From: Pseudonocardia autotrophica
GTDB taxonomy: Bacteria > Actinomycetota > Actinomycetes > Mycobacteriales > Pseudonocardiaceae
Length of the DNA stretch: 64,000 bases
Direction: 5' to 3'
NCBI RefSeq assembly: GCF_000717175.1
Contig: NZ_JNYD01000030.1
Coordinates: 5,885 to 69,884 of the forward strand
The notes below the pieces were generated by a model. The model ran no database searches and was not told where the DNA came from. It worked only from the letters and a program-made list of their open reading frames with translations. This document shows, in pieces, positions 14,511-42,469 of this stretch. The position numbers and the translations under genes were made by a program. Every line of letters starts with the position of its first letter. Positions within the stretch are counted from its first letter, which is position 1.

Positions 14511-14573
14511 CGGGTCGTCCTTCGGGGAGGGCGCCCGGACCGGCGGGCGTGCCGGTCCGGGAGGGGACGGGGG

Positions 14574-23160: not shown

Positions 23161-23183
23161 CTGGTCTCCCGTCCGCCCTCACG

Positions 23184-23196
23184 CTCACTCAGTGAG
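23184..23196. promoter_or_regulatory. Palindrome between CoA-transferase and IclR genes
   Basis: CTCACTCAGTGAG is a perfect 6-1-6 palindrome, 24 bases upstream of the CoA-transferase start in the 133-base divergent gap. It is the best operator candidate for the IclR protein encoded alongside. Confidence 0.4.
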
Positions 23197-23293
23197 AGCT
23201 ACTCTTGCTGGATGACACAACCGTAGGAACGCCGCCGGAGCGCGTCAAGCCCGCGCCGGGCCAGTAGGCTCGCGCCGTCAGGAGGGAGTCCCG

Positions 23294-24019: not shown

Positions 24020-24024
24020 TCCCG

Positions 24025-24879: not shown

Positions 24880-24880
24880 G

Positions 24881-27418: not shown

Positions 27419-27461
27419 CGGCGGTGCTGACGGCGGTGCTGACGGCGGCGCTGACGGCGGC
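27414..27461. repeat. Four tandem 12-base repeats after the monooxygenase
   Basis: GCTGACGGCGGT is repeated at 27414-27425 and 27426-27437, then as GCTGACGGCGGC at 27438-27449 and 27450-27461. The first unit contains the TGA stop of the monooxygenase. The array runs straight into the terminator hairpin. It is probably a slippage-type expansion, and its unit of 12 bases would keep any reading frame. Confidence 0.85.
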
Positions 27462-27488
27462 GCGGGAGCCGGGCCATGGCTCCCGCGC
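27460..27488. terminator. Strong hairpin between convergent genes
   Basis: GCGCGGGAGCC at 27460-27470 and its exact complement at 27478-27488 give an 11-base stem with a 7-base loop. It lies between the stop of the plus-strand monooxygenase and the stop of the 12-gene minus-strand operon, so it probably ends both. Confidence 0.7.
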
Positions 27489-27492
27489 CGGG

Positions 27493-28800
27493 TCAGTCCC
27501 GCGGGAGCTTGCCGGGGTTGAGCAGGCCTGCGGGGTCGAAGCGGTCCGCGGCGGCCCAGCGCGGCGGCATGTCCTCGTGCACCACCCAGCTGTGCGGGCT
27601 GTCGACGGCGAGGCCCTCGGCACGCAGCCGCTCCATGCCCGCGTGCACCAGGGCGTCGTCGCGGTGCGGGGCGAGGATCCGGGCCATCAGGCACGGGCCC
27701 TCGGGGCCGCGGATGCCCTCGAGCTGCACGGTCGCGTCCGCGAAGGCCTCGCCGATGAGCACCCGTTTGCCCAGGATCGCGTTGCCGCGCACCAGGACGT
27801 GGTACAGCTCGGGGCGCCTGGCCTTGGCCCGCACGGTGGTGTGGTTGTTGATGAAGGTCGCGAGGAAACGCACCGCCTCGGGCCGCACACCCGAGACGCT
27901 GCCGCCGCCCCGCTCCACGATCTCCCGCACCGCCTCGGCCTGCTCGACGCCGACGACCGCCCGCAGGTTCGTCCGGCCCGGCACGAAGCCCGGGTCCTCG
28001 GGGAAGAGCGCCGCGAGCTCCGGCTCGGTCACCGCGAGGATCTGCGGCGGCGGGTCCAGCCGCAGGATCTCGAGGGCCATCGCGGCACCCGCGTCGAGGT
28101 CCGGCACGGAGGCGAACACGGCGGTCCGCTCCCGCGCCGGCACGGTCCTTAGCCCCACCCGCACGATCAGCCCGGTGGTGCCGAAGGCGTGCACATGCGG
28201 GGTGGTGTCCGGGAACCGCACCTCGACGGGCTCGGCGTCGGCGGTGACCCGCACGAGCGTCAGGGCCTGCACGAACCCCTCGTGGTTGAAGCCGTGCTCG
28301 ATCGAGCCCGGTCCCCCGGCCCCGCCGCCCACGTACCCGGCGACGGTGCTGTTCAGCGTGGTCGGGAACATCGCCGGCTCGCGGCCGGTGCCCTCGAGGA
28401 ACGCGAACAGGTCGTGCCAGCTGGTGCCGGGCAGCGCGCTGACCACGCCGTCGTCGTCGAGGACGATGTCCCCGGCGAGCTCGTGGAAGTCCACCATGAT
28501 TCCCTGCGCGAGCGGGATGATCTGCCCGTAGTTCGAGGTGCCCTTGCCGCGTGCGGTGAGCGGGATCCCGCGCTCGTGCGCGAACCGGGCCAGGGCCCGG
28601 ACGGCCTCGACCGTCCGGACCGTGACCACGGCGTCGGGCAGGGTCCGCGGGATGCTGCCGTGGATGATCGGCGAGACCCAGGAGAAGTCCTTGGTCGCGG
28701 CCTTGCAGGCGGCCTCGTCGGCGCCGACCCCGGCGGAGTCGCCGAGGAGGGCGCGCAGGTCCGCCGCGAGTGTCTCGGGGAGAACGGTCCCTGCCGCCAT
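27493..28800 (-). CDS. FAD-binding oxidase (VAO/GlcD type), last gene of the 12-gene operon
   Basis: A 435-residue flavoprotein with a PCMH-type FAD domain (PDAVVTVRTVEAVRALARFAHERGIPLTARGKGTSNYGQ, then FPTTLNSTVAGYVGGGAGG with Gly-rich FAD loop). Its C-terminal end reads DRFDPAGLLNPGKL, as in glycolate-oxidase-type enzymes. It would oxidise an alcohol, hydroxy acid or amine to carbonyl level. The ATG overlaps the stop of the amidase as TGATG. No covalent-FAD His can be assigned by eye. Confidence 0.85.
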   Translation of the reverse strand: MAAGTVLPETLAADLRALLGDSAGVGADEAACKAATKDFSWVSPIIHGSIPRTLPDAVVTVRTVEAVRALARFAHERGIPLTARGKGTSNYGQIIPLAQGIMVDFHELAGDIVLDDDGVVSALPGTSWHDLFAFLEGTGREPAMFPTTLNSTVAGYVGGGAGGPGSIEHGFNHEGFVQALTLVRVTADAEPVEVRFPDTTPHVHAFGTTGLIVRVGLRTVPARERTAVFASVPDLDAGAAMALEILRLDPPPQILAVTEPELAALFPEDPGFVPGRTNLRAVVGVEQAEAVREIVERGGGSVSGVRPEAVRFLATFINNHTTVRAKARRPELYHVLVRGNAILGKRVLIGEAFADATVQLEGIRGPEGPCLMARILAPHRDDALVHAGMERLRAEGLAVDSPHSWVVHEDMPPRWAAADRFDPAGLLNPGKLPRD

Positions 28801-30296
28801 CAGAACCCTTCCGGAGCGGTGAACCCGACGAGCCCCGCCTCCTCGGCGAGCGCGGCCACGGCGAGCGGGGTGCGGTCGTCGAGGTAGCGACCGAGCAGCT
28901 GCGCGCCGATCGGCAGGCCGGAAGCCGCCCCGGCACCCAGCGGCACCACGGTGGCGGGACCGCCACCGAGGCCGGAGATCCGGCTCCACGCGCCGACGGC
29001 GTCGCCGGCCGGGTACGGCCGCCCGTCGAGCTCCAGGGTGCGGCGGTCGTTCGGGACGTCGGAGTGCCGCGGCGCGGCACACGGTGCGGCCGGGCACAGC
29101 ACCACGTGGTGCCGCTCGTGGATCTCCGCCCAGCGCGCGGCGATCGCACGCTGCGCCTCGAAGTCGTTCAGCGCGTCGCGCAGGGACTGGACGTGCCCGC
29201 GGGCCATGTCTCCCGCTCGGCCGGTCGCCCCGGCTCCGGCGAGGTGGACGCTGCGCGCGAACGCCTCCGGGTCCAGGCCGTGCACGACCTCGCCGGCCTG
29301 CAGGCGCACGAACAGCTCGATCGCCTCCTCGCCGCGCACCGGTGGGGCGGTCAGTTCCTCGACCTGCGCCCCGGCCCGGTCCAGGGCGTCGGCGAAGGCG
29401 CGGATCGCGTCGCGGGTCTCGGAGTCGACGGGGCAGGCAGGGTCGTCGAGCCAGACCGCCACCCGGGCGCCCGCGAGCGAGGTGACCCGGGCGGGCGGCA
29501 GCTCCAGCCGCCAGGCGTGGGCGTCGAGCCCCTCGGCCCCGGCGATCGCGTCGAGGAACCGGGCCGAGTCCGCGGCCGAGCGGGTCATCGGGCCGACGGC
29601 CGAGACCATCGGCTCCAGCAGCCCGCCCTCCGGCCACGGCATGTGCCCGAGCTTGGACACGATCCCGTTCGACGGCCGGTGCCCGAACAGGCCGCACCAC
29701 GCGGCGGGGACCCGCAGCGACCCCGCGAGGTCGCTGCCGAAGTCCGCCACCGCGATCCCGGCGGCGACCGCGGCCCCGGACCCGCCGGACGACCCGCCCG
29801 GCGACCGCTCACGGTCGAACGGGTTGAGCGTGCGGCCGAGGTCCTCGTTCACCGACTGGTGGTCGGCGAGGTAGACCGGCACGTTCGTCTTGCCGACGAC
29901 GACGGCGCCGGCCTCGCGCAGCCGCCGAACCAGCGGGGAGTCCACCGTGGCCTGCCGCGCGTCGGACAGCCGGCCGTGCGAGGTGCGCATGCCGGCGGCG
30001 TCGAACGCGTCCTTGATCGTGACGGGCAGGCCGGCGAGCGGGCCGACCGGCTCGCCCGCGGCGCGGGCCGCGTCGACCGCGTCCGCGGCGGCGCGGGCGC
30101 CCTCGTCGTCCCGGTCCACGACTGCGTTCAGCTCGCCGCCCGCCCCGTCGAGCAGGGCGAGGTGCTCCTCCAGCAGCGCCCGCGCGGTGACGGCCCCGGA
30201 GTCGAGGTCCGCCAGCATCCGGGTGCCGTCGAGGGCGGCGAGCGAGGGGAGAGTGCCGGAGGCGGAGCCTGCGGAGCCGACCGTCGGTGCCGTCAC
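28800..30296 (-). CDS. Amidase (amidase signature family)
   Basis: A 498-residue amidase with the complete Ser-cisSer-Lys triad: Lys in LPVTIKDAFDAAG, the cis-Ser loop GGSSGGSGAAVAAG and the nucleophile in SDLAGSLRVPAAWCG. It hydrolyses a carboxamide to acid and ammonia or amine. It overlaps the flavin monooxygenase (GTGA) and the FAD oxidase (TGATG). It differs clearly from the AtzH-fused amidase in the same operon, so they probably act on different intermediates. Confidence 0.9.
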   Translation of the reverse strand: MTAPTVGSAGSASGTLPSLAALDGTRMLADLDSGAVTARALLEEHLALLDGAGGELNAVVDRDDEGARAAADAVDAARAAGEPVGPLAGLPVTIKDAFDAAGMRTSHGRLSDARQATVDSPLVRRLREAGAVVVGKTNVPVYLADHQSVNEDLGRTLNPFDRERSPGGSSGGSGAAVAAGIAVADFGSDLAGSLRVPAAWCGLFGHRPSNGIVSKLGHMPWPEGGLLEPMVSAVGPMTRSAADSARFLDAIAGAEGLDAHAWRLELPPARVTSLAGARVAVWLDDPACPVDSETRDAIRAFADALDRAGAQVEELTAPPVRGEEAIELFVRLQAGEVVHGLDPEAFARSVHLAGAGATGRAGDMARGHVQSLRDALNDFEAQRAIAARWAEIHERHHVVLCPAAPCAAPRHSDVPNDRRTLELDGRPYPAGDAVGAWSRISGLGGGPATVVPLGAGAASGLPIGAQLLGRYLDDRTPLAVAALAEEAGLVGFTAPEGF

Positions 30297-31498
30297 GCCA
30301 CTGCGCTTTCTGCCTCGAGCGCCTGCTGCCCGTCGGCCGACATGGCGATCCCGAGCCGCGGCGCCACCTCGGCGGCGAACATCCGCAGCTGGTCCTGCTG
30401 CTGCTCCGGGGTGAGGCCCAGGGCGTCCATCGCGACCGAGAGCCGGCGCAGGCCGAGCCGGTCGCGGTACTCCGCGATCTGCTCCGCGACCTCGTCGAAG
30501 TCACCGACGACATAGATCCGCTGGCGCATCGACTCCTCGAGGGTCGGCGCGTAGTCGAACGGGGTGGAGTCCATGCCGGCGGGCGGGTCGTAGGTGGCGA
30601 ACCGGCCGTAGGGCGAGAGCAGCTTGGTCAGCTCGTCGTGCCCGGGCCGGGCCAGCGCGACGGCCTCCTCGTGCGTCGGCGCGACGTTGACGTGCAGGAC
30701 GAGCATCTGCTCCTCCCCCACCTCCGTCGGCCGGCCGTGCTTCGCAGTGAGCTCCGCGTGCAGCGCCCAGGCCTTCTCCAGGCGCGCCGCCGACTGTCGG
30801 GTGTAGACGCCGATGTGCCCGTGCTCGGCCACGTAGTCGACGGTCCGCGGTGAGGTGCAGGCCTGGTAGATCTCGACCTCGCGGGTCACGTTCGGGACCA
30901 GCGCGAGGTCCTGCACGAACCCGCCGCGGTCCGGGATCCCGGCCGGCGGGAACTGGAAGTGCGTGCCCTGGTGGGAGAACCGCTCCTGGGTGAACGCGGC
31001 CCGGATCGCGGCCATGGCTTCGGCGAAGTGCTCGCGGTTGGCCTGCTCGGCATCCGCGTCGAGCCCGTTGTCCCCCGACTCGATCTTCGCGCCGAGGGTC
31101 TGCATCTCCCGCGGCACGGTGCCCCGGCCCACGCCGAAGCGCATCCGGCCGCCGGTGAGGATGTCCGCCGCGGCGAAGTCCTCGGCCAGCCGCAGCGGGT
31201 TCCACTGCGGGACGATGTTGAACATCTGGCCGAAGTTCAGCCGCCGCGTGACGGCCGCCGAGTACAGGCCCAGCAGGACCTGGTTCGGGACGACCTCGTA
31301 GCCCTCGTGCTGGAAGTGGTGCTCGGTGTACCAGAAGGTGTCGAAGCCGACCTCGTCCGCGACCTTCGCCAGGTCGACGAAGTCGCCGAACGCGTCCGCG
31401 TAGTCCTGGCGCCCGTATCGGCGGGAGGTGGCGGCGGGGCCGGCGGCGCCGGCGTCGGGCATCCGGACGGCGCCCAGGATGTTGGTGTCGATGCGCAT
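30293..31498 (-). CDS. Luciferase-like monooxygenase in the 12-gene operon
   Basis: A 401-residue LLM enzyme of the bacterial-luciferase branch rather than the NtaA branch: FDTFWYTEHHFQHEG holds the His pair, followed by IVPQWNPLRLAEDFAAADILTGGRMRFGVGRGTVPRE. It should bind FMN or F420; no motif decides between them. In the uracil (Rut) pathway an LLM enzyme opens the ring before a RutB hydrolase acts, and here a RutB-like hydrolase is encoded in the same operon. The start is 32 bases after the permease stop. Confidence 0.85.
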   Translation of the reverse strand: MRIDTNILGAVRMPDAGAAGPAATSRRYGRQDYADAFGDFVDLAKVADEVGFDTFWYTEHHFQHEGYEVVPNQVLLGLYSAAVTRRLNFGQMFNIVPQWNPLRLAEDFAAADILTGGRMRFGVGRGTVPREMQTLGAKIESGDNGLDADAEQANREHFAEAMAAIRAAFTQERFSHQGTHFQFPPAGIPDRGGFVQDLALVPNVTREVEIYQACTSPRTVDYVAEHGHIGVYTRQSAARLEKAWALHAELTAKHGRPTEVGEEQMLVLHVNVAPTHEEAVALARPGHDELTKLLSPYGRFATYDPPAGMDSTPFDYAPTLEESMRQRIYVVGDFDEVAEQIAEYRDRLGLRRLSVAMDALGLTPEQQQDQLRMFAAEVAPRLGIAMSADGQQALEAESAVA

Positions 31499-31530
31499 CT
31501 CAGGAACTCCAGGTCTCGGTCGTCGCCGGC

Positions 31531-32415
31531 TCAGTCGTCCGAAGACATGGCGGACTCGTGCCAGCGCCGCAGCGCGAGCACCTCCACCAGCCGGACGAGC
31601 CCGAACAGCAGCAGCGAGACGCAGCTCGCGGCGATGACGGCGAGGAACAGGCGCGGCATGAGCAGTTGCTGCGCGGTGGACGTGATGACGTAGCCGAGGC
31701 CGCCCTGGCCGCCGCCGATGCCGGCGACGAACTCGCCGACGATCGCGCCGATGACGGACGAGCCCGCGGCGATCCGCAGCCCGGTCAGCACGTAGGGCAG
31801 CGCGTACGGGATGCGCAGGACGCTCATCTCGTAGCGCTTCGAGGCTCCGGCCATGGCGAACAGCTGCACGAGGTTCCGGTCGGTGGACTTGAGGCCGGTC
31901 AGCGTGTTCGCGGTGACCGGGAAGACGGCGATCATGGCGGCGACCACGGTGTTCGTCGTGGGGCCGGGGCCGAGCCAGACGACCAGGATCGGCGCGACGG
32001 CGATGATCGGGATGGTCTGCAGCAGGACCATGTAGGGGTAGAGGCCGCGCTCGGCGACGTTCCAGCGGGCCATCACGAACGCCACCGCGAACCCGACGAC
32101 GGCGGCGAGCAGGAACCCGCCGTACGCCTCGCCCATGGTCACCAGGGTCGGCTCGACCAGGGTGCCGATCGCGGGCCCGATCTCGGCGAGGACGTCGAGC
32201 GGGGCGGGGACCAGGAACTTCGGGACCCCGAACAGGCTGATCAGCGCCTGCCACAGCGCCACGGCGATCACGAGGACCACCAGCGGCGGCAGCACGAACG
32301 ACAGCAGGGTTCGGCCGGACGGGGCCTTGCGCGGCACCGTCGGCCGGGCGGCCGCCTGCGGGGTGGCCGGGGTCTGCGCCGGGGGCGTCGCCGGAGTCTT
32401 CTCTGCGATGCTCAT
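31531..32415 (-). CDS. NitT/TauT-type ABC permease
   Basis: A 294-residue permease of the nitrate/taurine/HMP class. After a Pro/Ala-rich N-terminal tail of about 30 residues come about six hydrophobic helices, with PILVVWLGPGPTTN and the EAA-like loop (FAMAGASKRYEMSVLRIPYALPYVLTGLRIAAG). The ATG overlaps the stop of the ATPase gene as ATGA. With the ATPase and one of two linked binding proteins it makes a complete importer. Confidence 0.9.
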   Translation of the reverse strand: MSIAEKTPATPPAQTPATPQAAARPTVPRKAPSGRTLLSFVLPPLVVLVIAVALWQALISLFGVPKFLVPAPLDVLAEIGPAIGTLVEPTLVTMGEAYGGFLLAAVVGFAVAFVMARWNVAERGLYPYMVLLQTIPIIAVAPILVVWLGPGPTTNTVVAAMIAVFPVTANTLTGLKSTDRNLVQLFAMAGASKRYEMSVLRIPYALPYVLTGLRIAAGSSVIGAIVGEFVAGIGGGQGGLGYVITSTAQQLLMPRLFLAVIAASCVSLLLFGLVRLVEVLALRRWHESAMSSDD

Positions 32416-33158
32416 GCCGCCGCCAATCGCGCGCCGATGTACTTCACGGTCTCGTCGAGCGCATCGGTGTCGCGCGCCGCGTCCGGGTCCGTGCCGGGCG
32501 GGCTCGGGGACTCCACGATCTCCACGATCCGGCCGGGTCCCGAGGCCATGACGACGACCTCGTGGGCGATCTTCACGGCCTCGCGGATGGAGTGGGTGAT
32601 GAACAGGACGCCGAAGCGGCGCTCGCGCCACAGCCGGATCAGCTCGTCCGCCATGCGGTCACGGGTGAACTCGTCGAGGGCCGCGAAGGGCTCGTCCATC
32701 AGCATCAGGTCCGGCTCGGAGGCCAGCGCCCGGGCCAGCGAGACGCGCATCCTCATGCCGCCGGACAGCTCCCGCGGCAGGGACTTCTGCACGTTCTCCA
32801 GGCCGACCAGGCGCAGCGCCTCGACCGCCCGGCGGCGGGTCTCGGCCCGCGGCACCTTGCGGATCCTGGAGACGAGCTCGGTGTTGGCCAGCACGTTCCG
32901 CCAGGCCATCAGCGTCGGGTCCTGGAAGACGTAGGAGTTCTGGGTGGAGCCGATGCTCAGCTCACCGGTCGTCGGTGAGGACAGCCCGCCGGCCATCCGG
33001 AGCAGGGTGGTCTTGCCGCAGCCCGAGGGCCCGACGATGCTCACCACCTTCCCCGGGCCGATCGTCAGGTCGATCGGGGCGAGGGCGGTGAAGCCGTTCG
33101 AGTAGGTCTTGGTGACGCCGGCGAACCTGACCAGGTCCGCCTGCACGGCAGTCGTCAT
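32412..33158 (-). CDS. NitT/TauT-type ABC ATPase
   Basis: A 248-residue ATPase with Walker A GPSGCGKTTLLR, Q-loop in SYVFQDPTLMAW, signature LSGGMRMRVSLARAL, Walker B LMLMDEPFAALD and H-loop FITHSIREA. It drives import through the permease with which it overlaps. The start is the ATG at 33158, 11 bases after the binding-protein stop, with GGAG upstream. Confidence 0.92.
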   Translation of the reverse strand: MTTAVQADLVRFAGVTKTYSNGFTALAPIDLTIGPGKVVSIVGPSGCGKTTLLRMAGGLSSPTTGELSIGSTQNSYVFQDPTLMAWRNVLANTELVSRIRKVPRAETRRRAVEALRLVGLENVQKSLPRELSGGMRMRVSLARALASEPDLMLMDEPFAALDEFTRDRMADELIRLWRERRFGVLFITHSIREAVKIAHEVVVMASGPGRIVEIVESPSPPGTDPDAARDTDALDETVKYIGARLAAA

Positions 33159-33169
33159 GGGGGGTCTCC

Positions 33170-34180
33170 TCAGGGGGCCGGCGGCAGCGTCGTCGGGGCG
33201 GGGACGGTGGGCAGGGCCGAGGTGTCGAACAGGCTCGCCGGGTCGAGGCCCGGCTCGAGCGCGCCGAGCTGCGTCATCTGGTCGACGAGCGTGGACCAGC
33301 GCGCCGGGGTCATCGCGCCGAGCGCGGTGGCGCCGTCCCCGGCGGTGAGGAACTGCCGCTGGGCGTCCCACGCGAACCAGTTCGCGGCGGCGTCGAGCTG
33401 CGGGTTCTCCTGCTGGAGGGTGGCGTTGACCTTCTCCGCCAGAGCGGTGTCCGACATGTACGCGGACCAGCCGCGCATCGTCGCGTCGAGGAAGGACCTG
33501 ACCTTCTCCGGGTTGTCGCGGAGGAAGTCCTCGGTCGTGAAGATGACGTCGTTGTAGGGGTTGTAGCCCGCGCTGGCGTAGCTCAGGAAGCGCGTCTGCA
33601 CACCCTCCTTCTGCGCCGTGTACGCCTCGTTGGTCGGCCAGCCCTGCTGGACGGCGGCGTCGTCGTGCACGAAGGTGGCGATCGAGCCGTTGTACGCGGC
33701 GGTGGTGAAGTCGATGCCCTGGGAGCGCTTGACCCACTCCTGGCCGAGCTGTCCGGTCTGGACGTACCAGGTGCGGCCCGCAAGGTCCTTCCAGTCCTGG
33801 GCTCCGCTGTCCGCGTGGACCATCACGCCGACCGGGTTCTCCTGGAACAGCGCGGCCACGGCGACGATCGGGATCCCGGTCGCCTTCGCGTTGGCGACCG
33901 TGGTGGCGTCGCTCAGCCCGAAGTCGGCGCGGCCCGAGGCCACGACCTGCGTCTGCGACACCTGCGGGCCGCCGGGCTGGATGTCGACGTCCAGGCCCTG
34001 CTGCGCGAAGAGGCCCTGCTCCTCGGCGGCGTAGAAGCCGCCGGACTCGGCGGTCGGGTACCAGCCCAGCACGACGCTCACCGGCTCGGCGCCCGCGCTC
34101 GCCGGCGCCGCCGACGTGCCGCACGCCGCCAGGCCGAGCGCGAGGAGCCCGCCGAGCGCGGCGGTCAGCAGGCGCTTCAC
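33170..34180 (-). CDS. NMT1/THI5-type substrate-binding lipoprotein (operon copy)
   Basis: A 336-residue lipoprotein with a signal ending in LAAC, Cys20 being the lipid site. The NMT1 pattern is present: VLGWYPTAESGGFYAAEEQGLFAQQGLDVDI split over 40-70, GGPQVSQTQVVASGRADFG and FLSYASAGYNPYND. Relatives bind the HMP pyrimidine, riboflavin precursors or other small heterocycles. The protein at 40230 is a clear paralogue (shared SAGxNPY and the WVxRSQ segment). The GTG overlaps the creatininase stop. Confidence 0.9.
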   Translation of the reverse strand: MKRLLTAALGGLLALGLAACGTSAAPASAGAEPVSVVLGWYPTAESGGFYAAEEQGLFAQQGLDVDIQPGGPQVSQTQVVASGRADFGLSDATTVANAKATGIPIVAVAALFQENPVGVMVHADSGAQDWKDLAGRTWYVQTGQLGQEWVKRSQGIDFTTAAYNGSIATFVHDDAAVQQGWPTNEAYTAQKEGVQTRFLSYASAGYNPYNDVIFTTEDFLRDNPEKVRSFLDATMRGWSAYMSDTALAEKVNATLQQENPQLDAAANWFAWDAQRQFLTAGDGATALGAMTPARWSTLVDQMTQLGALEPGLDPASLFDTSALPTVPAPTTLPPAP

Positions 34181-34941
34181 CGCGCAGTCCGGAACTCGAA
34201 GGCGGACATCTGTGCGTAGGCCGACGCCAGCCGGCCGGTCCAGTGGGTCACGATCTCCTTGCCGATCTCGGCGGTGGCGGCCCGGGGGTCGCCGATCACG
34301 CCGTTGGTGGTGAGGTCGTCGCTGATCCACGCGGTGGGCAGCGCGCCCTCCAGGCTCAGCTCGCCGGGGAACAGTGCGGGGAGGTGGTCGCCGCCGAGGA
34401 CGAACCGGTCGGTGTGGACGGTCTCCGGCGCCAGGTGGAGCATCACCGAGGTCTCGACGTGTCCACCGTGGATGGAGAACTCGGCGTCGGGCAGGTCGAG
34501 GCCCTGGGGCACACCGAGCCTGCCGGTGGTCACGGGGAAGACCAGCAGGCCGGACTCGGTGCGGATGTCGCGGGCGGCGACGTCGAGCGAGGCGGGGTTG
34601 CCGCCGTGCCCGTTGACGAACGCGAGCCGGGTGAAGCCGGAGGCGGCGACCGAGCGACCGACGTCCTTGAGCACCGCGAGCAGGGTCTCGCTCGACAGGC
34701 TCATGGTGCCGGCCCAGCCGAGGTGCTCGGTGGACTTGCCGTAGTGCAGCGTCGGGAGGACCCAGACCTCGGCGTCCGTCTGGTCGGCGGCCAGCGCGGC
34801 GATCTGCTCGCCGACGAACGCGTCCGTCATGACGGGCAGGTGCGGGCCGTGCTGCTCGATCGCGCCGAGGGGCTGGACGACGACGGCCTTCGTCTTGTCG
34901 AGGTCCTTGATGTCCGAGGTGGACAGCTGCGCGAGCTTCAC
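34177..34941 (-). CDS. Creatininase-family amidohydrolase
   Basis: A 254-residue metal enzyme of the creatininase fold, which includes creatininase, the FAPy deformylase ArfB and mycofactocin MftE. Metal-site pieces are GAIEQHGPHLPVMTD, FVNGHGGN and IHGGHVETSVML. Family members hydrolyse cyclic or formyl amides. The GTG at 34941 overlaps the cupin stop by GTGA. In this operon it is a candidate for opening a cyclic amide. Confidence 0.88.
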   Translation of the reverse strand: MKLAQLSTSDIKDLDKTKAVVVQPLGAIEQHGPHLPVMTDAFVGEQIAALAADQTDAEVWVLPTLHYGKSTEHLGWAGTMSLSSETLLAVLKDVGRSVAASGFTRLAFVNGHGGNPASLDVAARDIRTESGLLVFPVTTGRLGVPQGLDLPDAEFSIHGGHVETSVMLHLAPETVHTDRFVLGGDHLPALFPGELSLEGALPTAWISDDLTTNGVIGDPRAATAEIGKEIVTHWTGRLASAYAQMSAFEFRTAR

Positions 34942-35375
34942 GAGAGCACCGCCCGGTCCGTGGCGTCCCACTCGGTGACGGTCCCCTTGGCCACGAGCTC
35001 GGCGAAGCCGCCGGGCAGGGCGCCGTCGTCGTCCGCCATGACCGTCACGGCGTAGAGCCGCTCGGTCCCGCTCGTGTTGACGATCCGGTGCACCGAGTTC
35101 GGCGGCAGGACGAGGGCGTCGCCCGCCCTCAGGTCCACGACGTGCTTGTCGCTGTGCGCGCGGCCGGTGCCCGACAGGATCACGAAGATCTCCGTGGACT
35201 CCGGGTGCGAGTTGTCCGGCTGGCTGCCGCCCGGCTCCCAGACCTCGAAGAACACGCTGGTCGACGAGCCGTCCGCCGGGCCGGCGAGCAGCGCCAGCTT
35301 CACGGTGTCGGAGGGCGAGATGAGCTGGGGCGCCACGTCGTCGAGGTGCCGCAGGATCGGCGGAGGGGTGGTCAC
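34938..35375 (-). CDS. Single-domain cupin protein
   Basis: A 145-residue cupin with the two metal-site motifs visible as SHPESTEIFVILSGTGRAHSD and LRAGDALVLPPNSVHRIVN. Glu and His ligands appear complete. Such small cupins act as dioxygenases, isomerases or ureidoglycolate-type lyases, and no choice can be made here. GTG start and stop both overlap neighbours as GTGA, showing tight coupling. Confidence 0.8.
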   Translation of the reverse strand: MTTPPPILRHLDDVAPQLISPSDTVKLALLAGPADGSSTSVFFEVWEPGGSQPDNSHPESTEIFVILSGTGRAHSDKHVVDLRAGDALVLPPNSVHRIVNTSGTERLYAVTVMADDDGALPGGFAELVAKGTVTEWDATDRAVLS

Positions 35376-36136
35376 GATCCGTCCTTACTGGTCGGTGCTG
35401 CGGAGAGGGCTGCGAGCAGGTCCGCGGAGTCGCAGGAGAACCCGTAGCACTGGCGGGTGTTGTAGAGCGTCGCCTCGTGGCAGAACGCGGGCGACGTGGT
35501 GGCGGAGGCGCCGTCGACCAGCACCACGTCGTAGCCCAGGCAGGCGCCGTCGACCAGTGTCGAGGAGACGCACTGGTCGGAGTTGACGCCCGCGAGGAAC
35601 AGGGTGTCCACGCGCAGGTTGCGCAGGATCGAGTCGAGCGGCGTGTCCCAGAAGCCGCTCATCCGGTACTTGTCGACGTGCAGGTCGCCGGCTTCGGCGG
35701 TGAGCCCGTCGACCAGGGCCGCGCCCCAGGAGCCCTTGGTCAGCACCTTGGAGCCGTTCGGCATCACCGCGCCGATGCCCGCACCGCGGCCCTCCGGGTC
35801 GTAGACGTGCGCGACGCCCGGCGGGACGTTGGCCTGGTCCTCGCGGTTGCCCCAGTTCAGCCAGACGATCGGCACGCCGGCGGCGCGGGCCGCCGGGACC
35901 AGGGATCGGAGGGCCTCGATCGCCGGGGCCAGCGGGGAGACGTCCACGCCGATCGAGTGCAGCCAGCCGCCCTCGGTGCAGAAGTCGTTCTGCATGTCGA
36001 CGACGACCAGGGCGCTGCGCGCGAGGTCCGCGGTGACCGGCGCGGGCAGCGCCTTGAGCTCGATCGGCCGGGGCTCGCGGTGCGGGCGGCGCAGGTCGAC
36101 CCGCCCCTCGGCGAAGGTCCAGCGGTTGGGGTTCAC
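35372..36136 (-). CDS. RutB-like cysteine hydrolase (isochorismatase fold)
   Basis: A 254-residue hydrolase with the catalytic triad Asp47 (VVVDMQND), Lys134 (VLTKGSW) and Cys189 (VNSDQCVSS). The segment KYRMSGFWDTPLDSILR strongly resembles RutB, which hydrolyses peroxyureidoacrylate in uracil breakdown. N-carbamoylsarcosine amidase and biuret hydrolase share the fold. It probably removes a carbamoyl or amide group from a ring-opened product. GTG overlaps the stop of the AtzH-amidase. Confidence 0.85.
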   Translation of the reverse strand: MNPNRWTFAEGRVDLRRPHREPRPIELKALPAPVTADLARSALVVVDMQNDFCTEGGWLHSIGVDVSPLAPAIEALRSLVPAARAAGVPIVWLNWGNREDQANVPPGVAHVYDPEGRGAGIGAVMPNGSKVLTKGSWGAALVDGLTAEAGDLHVDKYRMSGFWDTPLDSILRNLRVDTLFLAGVNSDQCVSSTLVDGACLGYDVVLVDGASATTSPAFCHEATLYNTRQCYGFSCDSADLLAALSAAPTSKDGS

Positions 36137-37758
36137 GCGGCTCCCTCCAGGGTCGCGGCGAGGCGGAGCAGGTCGAGATCCGTGCCCGGTGCGCCGACCA
36201 GGCACAACCCCGCGGGGCGGCCGTCGGCGGTGCGCAGCAGCGGGACCGAGACGGCCGGGGCGCCGGCGAGCCCGGCGAGGCAGGTCATGCGCAGGGTCCC
36301 GGCCCGCTCGGACTCGACGGCCGCGGCGCTCGCGTCCCGGGCCGGGGCGCCGCCGGCGCTGCTGGGCAGCACCAGCACCGCGCCGTCCAGCACCTCGCGG
36401 AGCCGGGCGCGGGCCTCGGCGACCGTCGCGCGGGCGGCGTCCGCCTCGGCGACCGTGACCGCGGCGGCCGCGGCGAACCGCCCGCCGACGTCCGCCCCCA
36501 GCGCGCCGGGGTGGGCGGTGATCCACTCGCCGTGCGCGGCCCAGGCCTCGTAGGCCTGCACCGTGCGGAACGCGGCGAACCACTCCTCGAGGGTCTCCGG
36601 GGCGAGGTCGACGACCTCGGCGCCCGGCAGCAGCCCCTCCCCGACCAGCGCGGCGCGGCGGTCGGCGCAGGCGGCGGCGACGTCGGGGCTCGCGTGACCC
36701 TCGGCCGTCGGCAGCACGACGGCCCGCACCGGCGGGCTGCCGGCCGGGACGGCGGAGGCGCCGGGGAGCAGCACCTCCGCCACCCGCAGAGCCGGGCCGA
36801 CCGCGCGGGCCACCCACCCGACCGTGTCGAACGACGGCGCGAGCGGCAGCACCCCGTCCGTCGAGATCGCGCCGTGCGTGGTCCGGATCCCGACCAGCCC
36901 CTGGTAGGAGGCCGGGACCCGGATCGACCCGGCGGTGTCGGTCCCGAGCCCGACCTCGACCTGGCCGAGGGCGACCGCGGAGGCGGGCCCGCTCGTCGAG
37001 CCGCCGCCGATCCCGCCGGGCACGGCCGGGTTCGGGGTGGTGCCGTAGTGGGCGTTCTGCCCGGCGAGGCTGTAGGCGAACTCGTCCGTGCGGGCGATCC
37101 CGGTGATCTCCGCACCTGCGCCGAGCAGCGCGGACACCGCGGGGGCGGTCGTGGTCCGCGGCGCTTGCTCGGCGAGCCAGGTCGGGTTGCCCGCGCCCAG
37201 CCGCTCCCCCGCCACCGCGAACAGGTCCTTCACGGCGAGCGTGACGCCGTCGAGCGGGCCGGAGACGGTCGGCGCGACCAGCGGCGCCCCGACGACCCGC
37301 CACACCGAGGGGTCGAGGGGAGGCGCGGCCGCGGCGGGGAGGGGGTGCGCCGCCGCGACCGGCCGGTCCTTCTTCGGGAGGGTCACGTGGGCGGCCGTGA
37401 CCTTCCACGTGCCGTCGAGGCGCTGCCACAGTTGGGTCTGCAGGCCCGTCGCCCCGTTCGACGGCTCCTCGGTGGACGCCATGACCAACGCGGCGTCGTC
37501 ACCGATCGGTCTGACCTGCAGCCCGGCCACCCGACGCGTGGGGATCACCACGCGGCCGGAGCGGAACCCGGCGATGGCGTCGTGCCCGACGAGCAGCGTG
37601 GTCCCGTCGCCGCGGACGGTGTCCGGGCCGGGGGCGAAGAGCGCGTCGAGGGTGGCGACGTCGTTGGCCAGCAGCGCGGTCTCGTAGGCGTCGAAGGCAC
37701 CGAGCAGGCCCTCGGGGACCGGCGCCGGCGAGACGACCCTCACGGCCTCGGCGATCAT
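36133..37758 (-). CDS. AtzH-like domain fused to an amidase
   Basis: A 541-residue fusion. Residues 1-140 are an NTF2-like AtzH/DUF3225 domain (FDAYETALLANDVATLDALF, then QLWQRLDGTWKVTAAHVTLP). Residues 150-541 are an amidase-signature enzyme with Lys in VTLAVKDLFAV, cis-Ser loop GGGSTSGPASAVA and nucleophile GTDTAGSIRVPAS. In the cyanuric acid pathway AtzH is a separate small gene near the 1-carboxybiuret hydrolase genes. The fusion hints at a carboxybiuret, allophanate or related ureide-type substrate, but this is inference. Confidence 0.85.
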   Translation of the reverse strand: MIAEAVRVVSPAPVPEGLLGAFDAYETALLANDVATLDALFAPGPDTVRGDGTTLLVGHDAIAGFRSGRVVIPTRRVAGLQVRPIGDDAALVMASTEEPSNGATGLQTQLWQRLDGTWKVTAAHVTLPKKDRPVAAAHPLPAAAAPPLDPSVWRVVGAPLVAPTVSGPLDGVTLAVKDLFAVAGERLGAGNPTWLAEQAPRTTTAPAVSALLGAGAEITGIARTDEFAYSLAGQNAHYGTTPNPAVPGGIGGGSTSGPASAVALGQVEVGLGTDTAGSIRVPASYQGLVGIRTTHGAISTDGVLPLAPSFDTVGWVARAVGPALRVAEVLLPGASAVPAGSPPVRAVVLPTAEGHASPDVAAACADRRAALVGEGLLPGAEVVDLAPETLEEWFAAFRTVQAYEAWAAHGEWITAHPGALGADVGGRFAAAAAVTVAEADAARATVAEARARLREVLDGAVLVLPSSAGGAPARDASAAAVESERAGTLRMTCLAGLAGAPAVSVPLLRTADGRPAGLCLVGAPGTDLDLLRLAATLEGAA

Positions 37759-38888
37759 CGCGGCACCTCGATCCGGTCCACGGCCGCGAAGTCGGCCAGC
37801 CGGATCCGGGCGTGGGAGCCCTTCACGATGTCGACCACCTGGGAGATCTCGAAGTCCGTCGCGGCGGACAGGTAGGCGTAGGCCAGCTCGGGGGCCATCC
37901 CGTAGACCGCGCCGAGGAGCTCGACCGCGTTGCGGCCGCACTTCTGCACGGCGACGTCGAGGTCCTCGTCGAGCCCGGTGGGCACGAGGAACTCCGCGGT
38001 GCGGACGAACGGCCCGGTCACGGCGCCGTAGCGGGCCGCGGCCTCCGCGGCGGGCACGACGTCGACGGTGAGGGTGGCGCGCAGCGGCGCCTCCAGCGCC
38101 GTCAGCGCGATTTCGCCGTTGCCCTGGGCGAAGTGCGGATCGCCGACGTAGAGGCCGGCGCCGGGCACCTGGACGGGCAGGTAGAGCGTGGTGCCGGCGA
38201 CCAGCAGCCGGATGTCGATGTTGCCGCCGTGCAGGCCGGGCGGGGTGGAGTGCCGGCGCGGGCCGGGCGTCGCCACGCCCATGACGCCGAGGAAGGGCGC
38301 CAGTGGGAAGCGGACCGGGCGGTCGGGGTCGCCGGGCTGCAGCGGGAGCGTGCCGCGCGCGGCGTCGAGGCCGAGCTCCAGGTCGTTGACCCGGCAGAAG
38401 ATGCTGGTCAGCGGGCCGTCGACGGGGAAGCTGCCGGGGAGCAGGCCCTTCCCGTGCCGGCTGGAGACCACGCCGTAGGGCACCCGGGGGACGAGCGCGT
38501 CGACCCGCACGGCGAGCAGGTCGCCGGGCTGCGCGCCGCGGACCTCGATCGGGCCGGTCACCACGTGCGGGCCGCCGGTGCGGTCGTGGTGCCCGTCGGC
38601 GGCGACGGCGATCGCGTCGAGCAGGACGTCGCGGGGCGCGACGCCGTGGGCACCGAAGAAGGCGATCGGGTCCCGGCCCTGGTCCTCGAGGATCCCCTCG
38701 TGGCTGACGGTGTCGACCACGACGGCGGCGCCGGGCTCCACCGAGAGTGCGGGGGCGTCGTCGGCGCAGGGCAGCCGGCCCCAGGTGGTGGTCGCCGGGG
38801 TGGCGGGGAGGTAGGCGCCGTCGGACGTGGCGGTGAGCGGCTGCAACACCGGAGCGGCGGCGATGGGTGCCAGCTCGGACGCGGTCAC
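37755..38888 (-). CDS. Acetamidase/formamidase-family enzyme
   Basis: A 377-residue FmdA/AmdA-type enzyme that hydrolyses short amides to acid and ammonia. The family hallmark VGDPHFAQGNGEIALTALE is present, with GGNIDIRLL and a zinc-site His early on (VSHEGIL). It is the second gene of the operon, directly after its GntR regulator, with GTGA overlap. It would suit the last deamidation, releasing formate or a short acid. Confidence 0.88.
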   Translation of the reverse strand: MTASELAPIAAAPVLQPLTATSDGAYLPATPATTTWGRLPCADDAPALSVEPGAAVVVDTVSHEGILEDQGRDPIAFFGAHGVAPRDVLLDAIAVAADGHHDRTGGPHVVTGPIEVRGAQPGDLLAVRVDALVPRVPYGVVSSRHGKGLLPGSFPVDGPLTSIFCRVNDLELGLDAARGTLPLQPGDPDRPVRFPLAPFLGVMGVATPGPRRHSTPPGLHGGNIDIRLLVAGTTLYLPVQVPGAGLYVGDPHFAQGNGEIALTALEAPLRATLTVDVVPAAEAAARYGAVTGPFVRTAEFLVPTGLDEDLDVAVQKCGRNAVELLGAVYGMAPELAYAYLSAATDFEISQVVDIVKGSHARIRLADFAAVDRIEVPR

Positions 38889-39661
38889 GGGGTCTCCCCC
38901 GTCGCGCGGTCCTCGAACCGGTCCCGGGTCAGGGCGGCGACGTCGGCGAGGTGGCGGGCCATCGCGTCCCGCGCCTCGGCGGGGTTGCCGGCCGCGACCG
39001 CGGCGAGGATCGCCCGGTGCCCGAGGTAGGAGACCTCGCGGGCGTAGCGGGTGGAGTGCGAGAGCACCCGGGTCGACGAGGTCCACGAGCAGGCGAGCGT
39101 GTTGATCGCCGACATCAGCGGGTTCTGCGCCGCGGCCGCGATGAGCATGTGGAACTCGAGGTCGAGCCGCAGCGACTCCTCGGGCGCCACCTCCGCGACC
39201 GGGTTGCGCAGCAGGTTCTCGAGCTCGACGAGGTTGGCGGCGGTGGCCCGCTCGGCGGCCAGCTCGGCCAGCCGGGGCTCGATCGCGCCGCGCAGCTCGG
39301 CAACGTCCCGCAGCTGGTGCTCCGCGTCGGAGAGCTGCGAGTACAGCGTCTGGACGTGCTCGGGCGCGGGCAGCACGGTGGTGCCGCGGCCCGGCCGGCG
39401 CTCGACGAGGTGCTTCGCCTCCAGCTCGTGCATGGCCTCGCGCAGCGACGCCCGGGACACGCCCAGGCTCGCCGCCAGCTCGCGCTCCGACGGCAGCCGG
39501 TCCCCCGGCCTGAGCTCGCCGACCGCGATCAGCTTCTCCAGGTGCGCCGAGATCTCGGTGCTCACGCTGCCGCGGAACGCGCCCGGCGCGAGCCGCGGCA
39601 GCTCGAGGGCGGAGGACGGCACCGGGCGGCGATCGCCCGGTGCTCCGGTGGTGCTGTCCAC
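38885..39661 (-). CDS. FadR-type GntR regulator, first gene of the 12-gene operon
   Basis: A 258-residue regulator. The winged helix ([48 protein letters not shown], about 55-105) is followed by an FCD effector domain with a His-rich metal site (LEFHMLIAAAAQN, HRAILAAV, MARHLADV). The GTG at 39661 has AGGAAGGA upstream; longer starts add no homology. It probably represses its own operon through the palindrome just upstream. Confidence 0.85.
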   Translation of the reverse strand: MDSTTGAPGDRRPVPSSALELPRLAPGAFRGSVSTEISAHLEKLIAVGELRPGDRLPSERELAASLGVSRASLREAMHELEAKHLVERRPGRGTTVLPAPEHVQTLYSQLSDAEHQLRDVAELRGAIEPRLAELAAERATAANLVELENLLRNPVAEVAPEESLRLDLEFHMLIAAAAQNPLMSAINTLACSWTSSTRVLSHSTRYAREVSYLGHRAILAAVAAGNPAEARDAMARHLADVAALTRDRFEDRATGETP

Positions 39662-39689
39662 ACCCGGTCCTTCCTGACTTCCGGCGCCG

Positions 39690-39720
39690 AACCACCCCGG
39701 GGGTGGTTGGCCTGACCAAT
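39690..39720. promoter_or_regulatory. Operator region of the 12-gene operon
   Basis: AACCACCCCGGGGGTGGTT at 39690-39708 is a perfect 9-1-9 palindrome. It runs into TTGGCCTGACCAA at 39707-39719, whose ends TTGG and CCAA form a second imperfect dyad. Both lie 30-60 bases upstream of the GntR start. The TTGG...CCAA spacing is typical of FadR-type GntR sites, so this is the likely autoregulatory operator. Confidence 0.5.
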
Positions 39721-40229
39721 CCGACCGTAGGCGGCGGAATGGTTCGACAACAGCGGCCCGGCGATCACGAAACCGTTTATTCACACGCGAAATACCGGCG
39801 AAACGGACGGGGGAAACGGGCCCGGCCGCAATGCCTCGGTCACCGTGTTTCGGGCAGGTGAAGTTCGACGCTCAACCGTTGACGGCGGGGGCCCCGACGC
39901 CCGATGGTCTGGGCGGTCCGCTTGGTCGGACCATCCGGCCCGGACCTCCTCCGGGACCGCGATCAGCTCGCTGAGCTGGGCCGACGTCGAGCGCACCCGC
40001 TGCGCCGCCGCTGGCCCGGGCGGCTGGGGTCGCGATCCCGGAGCTGGCCCGGCCGCCCGCTCGTCCGGACGTCGCCGTCCCCTCCCCTCCGACCGGACCC
40101 GCTCCCCGGGCCCGAGCACCGCCGTTTCCGTGAATGCGCAGAAATGGCCCGTCCCCTTTTCCCGACGACGCCGAGAATGGTTGTCCGCGCGTCGGCCGGG
40201 CGTTCCCGCCGCGAGATGTTGGAGCCCCC
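39721..40229. other. Divergent intergenic region of about 510 bases
   Basis: This stretch lies between the minus-strand operon and the plus-strand binding-protein gene. The left 120 bases are relatively AT-rich (ACGAAACCGTTTATTCAC) and probably hold one promoter. Frames on both strands exist but resemble no protein I know. It may hold an untranslated leader for the gene at 40230. Confidence 0.4.
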
Positions 40230-41339
40230 ATGTCCCTGTCCCCCACCCGCTGGGCGCGCCTGCCGCTCGCCCTCGTGGCGCTGGCGACCGCCCTCGTCCT
40301 CGCCGCGTGCGGCGGCGCCTCCGGCGGTGCGGCCGCGTCGAGCTCCGGGCCCGCCGGCGACGACAGCCTCACCGTGCAGCTGTCCTGGTTCAGCAACGCG
40401 CAGAACGGCGGCTGGACCGCCGCGCAGACCCAGGGCTACCTCGCCGACGCCGGCTTCTCCGACGTGAAGATCCTCCCCGGCGGACCCAACGTCTCCGGCA
40501 TCCAGCTGCTGGCCTCCGGCCGCGCCGACATCGCGGTGACCACCGCCGAGTCCTACCTGCAGGCCAAGGCGCAGGGCCTGCCGATCACCGCGGTCTACAA
40601 CGAGTTCGACACCCCGCCGACCGGCGTGCTGGTCAAGCAGTCCACCGGCTGGACGAAGTGGAGCGACCTCGCCGGCAAGTCCTGGACCGTCGCCCCGATC
40701 AGCCTCGGCTGGCAGTGGGTGCAGCGCAGCCAGAACATCCAGTTCCCGACCCAGAACTTCAACGGCACCTACGCCGCGTTCTTCGCCTCGCCCGACGGCG
40801 TGGTCCAGGGCTACCCGACCAACACGGTCTACGAGGCCCGCAAGCAGAACATCGACGTCAACTACTTCAGCTACGCCTCGGCCGGCTTCAACCCCTACGG
40901 CCAGATCCTCGCGGTGACCGAGGACTACGCGAAGAACCACGGCGACACGCTGAAGCGGGCGCTGGGCGCGCTGTCGAAGGGCTGGACGGCCTACCTCACG
41001 GACGTCGACGCGGCCACCAAGGCCAACGACCAGATGCTCACGGACAACAACCAGCTCGCCGCCGACACCAACTGGTTCACCTGGGCCGGCCAGCGCCCGT
41101 TCGTGATCGGCGGCCAGGGCGGCAAGCAGATGGGCGCCATGGGCGACGAGCGCTGGAACACCACGATCGACCAGATGAAGCAGATGGGCGCGCTGCCCGC
41201 CGACTGGAACCCGAGCGGCCCGCTGTACGACAACTCGTTCCTGTCGACCGAGGTCATGCCCCAGCTTGACGCGCTGCCCGACGCCCCGGCCGGCTCCTTC
41301 CAGGGCGCCGCACCGGCGATCACGGCCCCGACCAGCTGA
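40230..41339 (+). CDS. NMT1/THI5-type substrate-binding lipoprotein (divergent copy)
   Basis: A 369-residue lipoprotein with signal ending LAAC (Cys27). The mature part has LSWFSNAQNGGWTAAQTQGYLADAG, ILPGGPNVSGIQLLASGRADIAV and YASAGFNPYGQIL. It is paralogous to the protein at 33170-34180, sharing the WVQRSQ/WVKRSQ and SAGxNPY segments. It has no permease or ATPase of its own nearby and probably feeds the importer of the opposite operon. GGAG at 40221-40224 supports the ATG. Confidence 0.9.
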   Translation: MSLSPTRWARLPLALVALATALVLAACGGASGGAAASSSGPAGDDSLTVQLSWFSNAQNGGWTAAQTQGYLADAGFSDVKILPGGPNVSGIQLLASGRADIAVTTAESYLQAKAQGLPITAVYNEFDTPPTGVLVKQSTGWTKWSDLAGKSWTVAPISLGWQWVQRSQNIQFPTQNFNGTYAAFFASPDGVVQGYPTNTVYEARKQNIDVNYFSYASAGFNPYGQILAVTEDYAKNHGDTLKRALGALSKGWTAYLTDVDAATKANDQMLTDNNQLAADTNWFTWAGQRPFVIGGQGGKQMGAMGDERWNTTIDQMKQMGALPADWNPSGPLYDNSFLSTEVMPQLDALPDAPAGSFQGAAPAITAPTS

Positions 41340-41369
41340 CCGCCCCCCGCCCCGCCCCACGGAGGAACC

Positions 41370-42365: not shown

Positions 42366-42469
42366 CGTGGGCGGAGATGGGCGCCGTGAAGGTGCGCACT
42401 GCGAGATGAGGCTGTGAGCTGGGCCACGGGAAGATCCGCCTGAGGGCCGCGGGAACGCAGACTCCGTTC

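Follow-up and report, generated by a model that had tools for sequence, protein, structure and literature searches.

A conserved actinobacterial gene set, probably for nitrogen-heterocycle catabolism, with a proposed end route through oxalurate and oxamate

Organization of the operon and its divergent neighbors

The 64-kb stretch of Pseudonocardia autotrophica contig NZ_JNYD01000030.1 analyzed here (the window) carries twelve open reading frames (ORFs), all on the minus strand between positions 27493 and 39661. Their products comprise a GntR-family regulator, an acetamidase/formamidase-family hydrolase (AmdA), an amidase-signature enzyme fused to an AtzH-like domain (AtzH-amidase), a RutB-like amidohydrolase, a cupin, a creatininase-family hydrolase, an ATP-binding cassette (ABC) importer, a luciferase-like monooxygenase (LLM), a further amidase-signature hydrolase (AS) and a flavin adenine dinucleotide (FAD) enzyme (Table 1). 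The recurrence of this set in other genera and families makes the operon more than a chance assembly and, together with a divergent gene pair, it very probably forms a regulon for the catabolism of a nitrogen compound, presumably under the control of the GntR protein. An earlier reading made without database searches (the sequence-only reading) had described twelve mostly overlapping minus-strand genes in this interval, and the strand and limits of all of them were verified. Eight of the eleven junctions are four-base overlaps (GTGA or ATGA), one is a one-base overlap (TGATG, between the AS and FAD genes) and the remaining two leave 11 and 32 bases between genes; the operon is presumably read as a single transcript. 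The strong hairpin beyond the last gene (z = -2.78; 2 of 200 shuffles fold equally well) is not among the matches of a scan for terminators with a T run, and a sigma-70 promoter scan of positions 27300-42400 gave no match.

The family labels of the sequence-only reading were borne out by Pfam, families being counted as confirmed when over the curated cut-offs; the permease gave only sub-cut-off matches, and the ATPase lay outside the family scan. The regulator is NanR/LldR/PdhR-like and falls under every equivalog cut-off listed. The count of "five unrelated C-N hydrolases" drops to four superfamilies, since the AtzH-fused amidase and AS both belong to PF01425.

Nor does the functional unit end at 39661, as had been proposed. 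It extends into a divergent pair (40230-42365) that encodes a second binding protein, SBP2, and a 2-oxoglutarate (2OG)-Fe(II) oxygenase. An SBP2 orthologue is likewise divergent from GntR in Amycolatopsis acidicola (locus L031). Residues H212, D214, H269 and R279 of the oxygenase are conserved in a five-row alignment, and relatives at 38-41% are encoded close to the AtzH-amidase in loci L033 and L053. The region between the divergent units contains two palindromes of the form TTGGTCNGRCCAA. With up to one mismatch this pattern gives four strand matches in the 64 kb, all from the two intergenic sites, against a mean of 0.17 in shuffled controls, none of 100 shuffles reaching four; the pattern was picked after inspecting the window and its relatives, so these statistics overstate its significance. 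The occurrence of the pattern in other genera carries more weight. In A. acidicola and Kineosporia babensis both palindromes separate GntR from the gene divergent to it, and one lies upstream of GntR in Actinacidiphila oryziradicis and in genome G098; none was found in the fetched stretches of Mycobacterium AZCC_0083, Aeromicrobium and Trebonia. The consensus has what we take to be a resemblance to FadR/PdhR-type GntR operators. We infer that this GntR protein regulates the operon and the divergent pair through these sites, and the gene set is probably co-regulated.

Table 1. Features of the operon and the divergent region (window coordinates)
Feature	Position	Strand	Basis or remark
Strong hairpin, candidate transcript end, without T run	27458..27490	-	directly 3' of last stop codon
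FAD_binding_4 (VAO-type) oxidase or dehydrogenase, last gene of operon	27493..28800	-	PF01565, 80 bits
Amidase-signature hydrolase (AS)	28800..30296	-	PF01425, 276 bits
LLM (luciferase-like) flavin monooxygenase	30293..31498	-	PF00296 (Bac_luciferase), 139 bits
ABC importer permease	31531..32415	-	ABC permease NCBIfam models matched, all under cut-off
ABC importer ATPase	32412..33158	-	ORF and translation; BLAST matches adjoin permease in relatives
SBP1, NMT1-type solute-binding lipoprotein of ABC importer	33170..34180	-	PF09084, 148 bits
Creatininase-family metal hydrolase, proposed cyclic-amide (ring-opening) hydrolase	34177..34941	-	PF02633, 240 bits
Single-domain cupin, gene after RutB	34938..35375	-	PF07883 (Cupin_2), 56 bits
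RutB-like isochorismatase-fold amidohydrolase	35372..36136	-	PF00857, 126 bits
AtzH-like (NTF2/DUF3225) domain fused to amidase-signature enzyme, proposed oxalurate amidohydrolase	36133..37758	-	PF11533, 83.2 bits (cut-off 27); PF01425, 160 bits
AmdA, acetamidase/formamidase-family hydrolase, proposed oxamate hydrolase	37755..38888	-	PF03069 (FmdA_AmdA), 100 bits
GntR-family regulator, FCD domain	38885..39661	-	PF00392 and PF07729; first gene of operon
Divergent promoter region, 568 bases	39662..40229	.	between start codons of GntR and SBP2
GntR/FCD-type operator-like palindrome TTGGTCAGGCCAA	39707..39719	minus-strand reading	matching place in L031 and L030 too
Second operator-like palindrome ATGGTCCGACCAA, one mismatch	39922..39934	minus-strand reading	shared by L031 and L030
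SBP2, second NMT1-type binding lipoprotein	40230..41339	+	43% identity to SBP1 (145/336 aligned residues)
2OG-Fe(II) oxygenase (DIOX_N type)	41370..42365	+	PF14226, PF03171

Recurrence of the gene set in other genomes

A contig of Pseudonocardia halophobica VKM Ac-1069 (NZ_BSFQ01000039) matches the window at 100% over the AtzH-amidase and for all 15 window proteins found there. Within the genus the cluster is accessory, as just 2 of 24 genomes have a close AtzH-amidase or its amidase part. Beyond the genus, A. acidicola L031 conserves the order GntR-AmdA-AtzH-amidase-RutB-cupin-creatininase-ATPase-permease-LLM-AS-FAD, with SBP1 moved to the far end and no 2OG oxygenase match in the locus. Kineosporia babensis, Actinacidiphila oryziradicis and Mycobacterium AZCC_0083 carry GntR, AmdA, AtzH-amidase, RutB, cupin, creatininase and importer without LLM-AS-FAD; in Kineosporia the creatininase and ABC genes form part of a divergent unit. 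Aeromicrobium has the same core with no match to AmdA or GntR, and Trebonia kvetii has AmdA, AtzH-amidase, RutB and cupin together with weaker matches (37-46%) to creatininase, LLM and FAD and none to AS or GntR.

A RutB-anchored sample, drawn from the order (397 genomes) and from the phylum (396), yielded 14 genomes, besides that of the window, with an orthologue at 53% or above. The sequence-only reading had set a co-occurrence check in advance, and its outcome favors a linked set: in the fetched stretches the AtzH-amidase is present in 12 of the 14 and the creatininase in 11, whereas none of six loci of distant RutB homologues (40-45%; ten were found, six fetched) has any cluster gene over the thresholds. 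The cupin was found in 12 of the 14, AmdA in nine, AS in eight (58-67% relatives), the FAD enzyme in seven, the 2OG oxygenase in five, LLM in three, and an NMT1 protein and GntR in one each. The same stretches also encode Rieske oxygenases (10 genomes), cytosine-deaminase-like proteins (9), short-chain dehydrogenases/reductases (SDR; 8), amine-oxidase-like proteins (7), and TrzN-like and 8-oxoguanine-deaminase-like amidohydrolases (8 each). Searching 397 genomes for LLM gave four orthologues outside the window, three of them next to AS and at a distance of about 11 kb from RutB, and the fourth (G053, 49%) on a contig other than that of RutB; the FAD enzyme gave one match outside the window (L130) in 396 genomes of the phylum. 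Relatives of the FAD protein at 33-39% adjoin the creatininase or share its clusters.

Some loci differ in their parts. In L122 (5221-7296) a 691-residue fusion of Rieske/VanA_C and DIOX_N/2OG-Fe(II) oxygenase lies near cupin-AtzH-amidase-RutB. A distinct binding-protein-like lipoprotein, c87, occupies the place of the NMT1 protein in the importers of L099, L035, L130 and L135-L143; the one scanned had no Pfam match.

The titles and abstract openings listed by the literature searches, which leave subscription papers and preprints outside their scope, contain no description of the gene set as a whole. It is a real, conserved set of genes, drawn from known families and probably catabolic for a nitrogen heterocycle, with a testable end route.

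Family tests and the AtzH-amidase/AmdA pair

Membership of the Rut, cyanurate, creatinine, formamidase, biuret and mycofactocin systems was tried and rejected, the curated cut-offs being missed in every case. AmdA reached 76.4 bits against the formamidase FmdA equivalog NF045496 (cut-off 500). The AtzH-amidase missed the HpxZ equivalog NF033625 (71 versus 135) and both models of the 1-carboxybiuret hydrolase AtzE (TIGR02715, 153.9 versus 425.75; PRK09201, 158.4 versus 461); its nearest model, the PRK08310 amidase, was narrowly missed (381.9 versus 391). The RutB-like protein fell short of the ureidoacrylate amidohydrolase RutB (TIGR03614, 151.3 versus 377.95) and of the biuret hydrolase BiuH (NF050097, 115.6 versus 370), and the creatininase-family protein of creatinine amidohydrolase (TIGR04448, 108.9 versus 235) and, as a near miss, of the mycofactocin peptidase MftE (TIGR03964, 159.4 versus 172; mycofactocin genes were not searched for). 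LLM scored 30 bits against an NtaA/DmoA model with a cut-off of 280 and gave no RutA match at E 0.001.

Putative catalytic residues are conserved. K177, S254, S278, Y25 and R49 of the AtzH-amidase are invariant in a 30-row alignment. D47, K156 and C189 of the RutB-like protein, conserved in at least 97% of 27 rows, we take to be the Asp-Lys-Cys catalytic residues of the fold, a pairing made by eye without alignment to a solved RutB; among solved structures the top sequence match is RutB 8bkd (137 bits). The putative metal ligands E29, H31, D40, H112 and E163 of the creatininase-family protein are conserved in 18 rows. Creatininase itself opens a five-membered cyclic amide, and other members of the family act differently. 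In the cupin, H57, E62 and H96 are conserved (alignments of 19 and 7 rows); the folds nearest to its AlphaFold2 model (predicted local distance difference test, pLDDT, 88) are those of the Mn-cupin TM1459. The predicted fold of LLM lies nearest to luciferase-like and type II Baeyer-Villiger monooxygenases, with RutA first at rank 36. As judged from these models, the cupin and LLM matches are generic in fold and do not fix a substrate. The Y25/R49 spacing of the AtzH-amidase, 24 residues, equals that of the catalytic Tyr22/Arg46 of AtzH given in an excerpt of PMC6219798, the comparison being one of spacing without direct alignment to AtzH.

A profile scan of genome contigs with the 30-row AtzH-amidase alignment matched at least 596 stretches, of which 587 were confirmed and the best 80 used; in three of the 80 the match covers just the amidase part. 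AmdA occurs in 66 of these loci, in 65 of them next to the AtzH-amidase. Other neighbors, named from one representative each, are a PucG-like aminotransferase (60 loci), an AllC-like protein (allantoate amidohydrolase; 59), allantoinase (50), uricase (21) and HpxO (21). The PucG-like representative scored 575 bits to the solved ureidoglycine-glyoxylate aminotransferase 3nnk and 411 to PucG 3isl. PucG/HpxJ makes oxalurate. In many actinobacteria the AtzH-amidase/AmdA pair looks like a component of the oxalurate branch of urate catabolism; by analogy, the fusion would be an oxalurate amidohydrolase and AmdA an oxamate hydrolase. Many loci of Microbacteriaceae and Cellulomonas (L038-L107) share a conserved urate cluster, with AmdA-AtzH-amidase ahead of the PucG-like aminotransferase and frequently an allantoinase gene on the opposite side.

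RutB was found in seven of the 80 loci and the PucG-like gene in 60, the two never together, and the two contexts seem to be alternative upstream modules feeding one downstream pair. Curtobacterium L099 carries CodA-ATPase-permease-SBP-FAD-creatininase and a PNPOx-like gene, followed by allantoinase-AmdA-AtzH-amidase-PucG-AllC; L130 of genome G725 has the same deaminase-importer-FAD-creatininase-PNPOx block beside uricase genes. The draft genome of the host (152 contigs, 99.57% complete) contains no PucG/HpxJ, its only match being one of 28% and 47 bits, and has allantoinase beside allantoicase; the pair must therefore draw its substrate from another source, most simply the operon's own enzymes. 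We lean slightly toward an end route through oxalurate and oxamate.

Excerpts of PMC6219798 place enterobacterial ggt-atzG-atzE-atzH genes near those for a transaminase and allantoate amidohydrolase and assign 1,3-dicarboxyurea to AtzH as substrate; an excerpt of PMC5270733 cites HpxW as oxamate amidohydrolase. The Hpx/Puc oxalurate branch (HpxJ/PucG and, in Enterobacteriaceae, the ggt-type HpxW with AtzG/E/H-like HpxXYZ) and the relatives of the pair are alike in having an AtzH-domain protein and an amidase beside a transaminase and allantoate amidohydrolase, and in the proposed sequence oxalurate, oxamate, oxalate. They differ in that AtzH is here fused to the amidase and AmdA takes the position of HpxW; moreover, the window pair adjoins neither an aminotransferase nor an allantoate enzyme, its upstream module consisting of LLM, 2OG, FAD, creatininase, RutB and cupin. 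The cyanuric acid operon atzDGEHF likewise combines an AtzH domain with an AtzE-type amidase, but AtzD, AtzG and AtzF are not among the twelve genes and the AtzE cut-off was missed.

Proposed pathway and alternatives

Import and dismantling of an amide-rich ring nitrogen compound, as the sequence-only reading had it, remains the best interpretation and is backed by co-occurrence. The five unrelated hydrolase families of that reading are not borne out, and its complete dismantling is conjectural. The whole would be a regulon for the uptake of a small cyclic ureide or lactam and its degradation via oxalurate and oxamate to oxalate and ammonia, a reading to which we assign a probability of about 0.5. 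Each reaction, like the substrate itself, is proposed. The NMT1-type importer would take up the ureide or lactam, LLM and/or the 2OG oxygenase would hydroxylate the ring, the FAD enzyme would oxidize the alcohol to a cyclic imide (parabanate-type), and the creatininase-family hydrolase would open the ring to an oxalurate-type acid. The RutB-like hydrolase, the AtzH-fused amidase and the other amidase may strip ureido or side-chain nitrogen; finally, the AtzH-amidase would convert oxalurate to oxamate and AmdA oxamate to oxalate and ammonia. Relatives support this oxidize-then-open logic with other parts, namely Rieske/2OG oxygenases, SDR/FAD oxidoreductases and relatives of 8-oxoguanine deaminase, TrzN and cytosine deaminase.

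A more specific substrate, an imidazolidine of the hydantoin or creatinine type, is doubtful. In excerpts of a review (PMC11970497), cytosine deaminases turn creatinine into 1-methylhydantoin, whose breakdown to methyloxaluric acid has 5-hydroxy-1-methylhydantoin and methylparabanic acid as intermediates; by analogy, this chemistry would fit the gene set well. The window could then encode an undescribed aerobic route in which a hydantoin/creatinine-type ring becomes parabanate and undergoes creatininase-type opening to (methyl)oxalurate, then oxamate and oxalate. Such a route would be the genetic counterpart of the mammalian 1-methylhydantoin-methylparabanic-methyloxaluric sequence, with its last two enzymes shared with bacterial urate catabolism; we consider it speculative and unlikely. 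Known creatinine degradation (through creatininase, or through deaminase and methylhydantoin) offers parallels in the creatininase-family enzyme with its conserved putative metal ligands, in the cytosine-deaminase-like gene of related clusters and in the isochorismatase fold of N-carbamoylsarcosine amidohydrolase. It differs in that the creatininase equivalog was missed and creatinase and sarcosine oxidase are not among the twelve genes (they were not searched for elsewhere).

Several observations weigh against the ureide or lactam pathway. All ten proteins scanned fell under every NCBIfam cut-off listed. The oxalurate assignment rests on gene context, and the AtzH-amidase could act on a related carboxy-urea. 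In a tree of 50 AtzH-amidases (19 RutB-type, 20 of 59 PucG-type and 11 other), placing the RutB labels takes 5 changes and placing the PucG labels 7, of which well-supported branches force 3 and 6; judged from this tree the two contexts do not form two clean clades, which suggests repeated gain, loss or swapping of modules and not a single split. Ten of the 14 RutB-orthologue genomes belong to one family (f16), so that their counts are not independent, and two (G171 and G388) have no AtzH-amidase in the stretch, G171 being a short contig with Rieske, deaminase and importer genes and G388 having none of these. Thirteen of the 14 show no operator-like sites in the fetched stretches and no GntR orthologue at threshold, and one control locus (G330) has a single-strand palindrome match. 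To our knowledge, the LLM, 2OG and FAD enzymes of the window belong to no type that oxidizes hydantoins. The operon and divergent pair lack the deaminases that many relatives have (each type in 8 or 9 of 14 genomes), so that creatinine or an amino-heterocycle as substrate would need an enzyme encoded elsewhere. The best host match to oxalyl-CoA decarboxylase (208 versus 739 bits) is, like all others, under the curated cut-off. Loosely similar groupings are, finally, already in print: excerpts of PMC12625717 describe ammonia-oxidizing archaea whose biuret hydrolase genes adjoin one for an amidohydrolase, frequently together with oxalurate genes and in one case close to a creatininase-like gene.

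Other substrates and arrangements have been weighed. The extra genes of the relatives, which include a VanA-type Rieske oxygenase (10 of 14) and TrzN-like (8), 8-oxoguanine-deaminase-like (8) and cytosine-deaminase-like (9) proteins, would suit an N-methylated or N-alkylated heterocycle, such as a methylated purine, a pterin or a triazine-like compound, attacked by oxygenase demethylation, deamination and ring opening. A ferredoxin-type (Fer2) reductase and a methylenetetrahydrofolate-reductase-like gene beside the importer in the two genomes scanned hint at N-demethylation there, although the Pfam MTHFR matches are weak (26 and 35 bits; cut-off 24), and L122 unites Rieske and 2OG domains in one protein. 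No such extra gene turned up in the operon or divergent pair, however, where the oxygenases are LLM and 2OG, and we regard such a substrate as rather unlikely for the window. A Rut-like pyrimidine route, in which LLM would open a six-membered pyrimidine or barbiturate ring, the RutB-like enzyme cleave the ureido acid and other amidases finish, draws on the presence of both proteins, as in the Rut operon, on the RutB structure as best sequence match, on the appearance of RutA in the fold search with the LLM model and on the cytosine-deaminase-like genes of relatives. Yet LLM is not RutA-like by sequence search or fold rank, the RutB equivalog was missed (151 versus 378 bits), the twelve include no other Rut gene (no search for RutC-F was made elsewhere), LLM accompanies RutB in 3 of 14 genomes as against 12 for the AtzH-amidase, and the AtzH-amidase/AmdA pair keeps company with a PucG-like aminotransferase in other genomes; the route is distinctly unlikely. 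That the locus merely gathers unrelated scavenging amidases under one nitrogen-starvation regulator, with no single pathway, would agree with the variation of gene order among genera, with the divergent placement of the Kineosporia genes and with the occurrence of parts alone (AmdA in 66 and RutB in 7 of 80 loci). The overlapping genes, the operator-like sites between divergent units and the recurrence of the same parts together in varied arrangements make this improbable.

If the context reading of the AtzH-amidase/AmdA pair is true, these are candidate actinobacterial genes for the conversions of oxalurate to oxamate and of oxamate to oxalate, with AmdA replacing the Klebsiella-type HpxW, and two upstream modules (allantoate/PucG, or LLM-creatininase-RutB) would supply a single downstream pair. 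A family of soil gene clusters that have no other name would then be open to direct test, needing two purified enzymes and two simple substrates, and the rest would have a short substrate list.

Other genes of the window lie nearby. An LLM monooxygenase of the NtaA/DmoA family (26060-27418, plus strand; 483 bits versus a cut-off of 280) is convergent on the operon and may belong to the pathway; a 38% relative lies between the permease and binding protein of a related cluster in G394 (L143). The amidohydrolase at 20004-21293 (plus strand), considered as the missing deaminase, was dropped: it is related to Xaa-Pro dipeptidases (218 bits versus a cut-off of 500) and has no BLAST match to the cluster deaminases. 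The interval 21946-25951 (minus strand) holds a CoA-transferase family III gene, related under cut-off to formyl-CoA/oxalate CoA-transferases, along with genes for a beta-propeller protein and a TIM barrel resembling xylose isomerase. The minus strand at 12888-17152 encodes two more LLM monooxygenases of the NtaA/DmoA type and, after them, a family-5 solute-binding protein.

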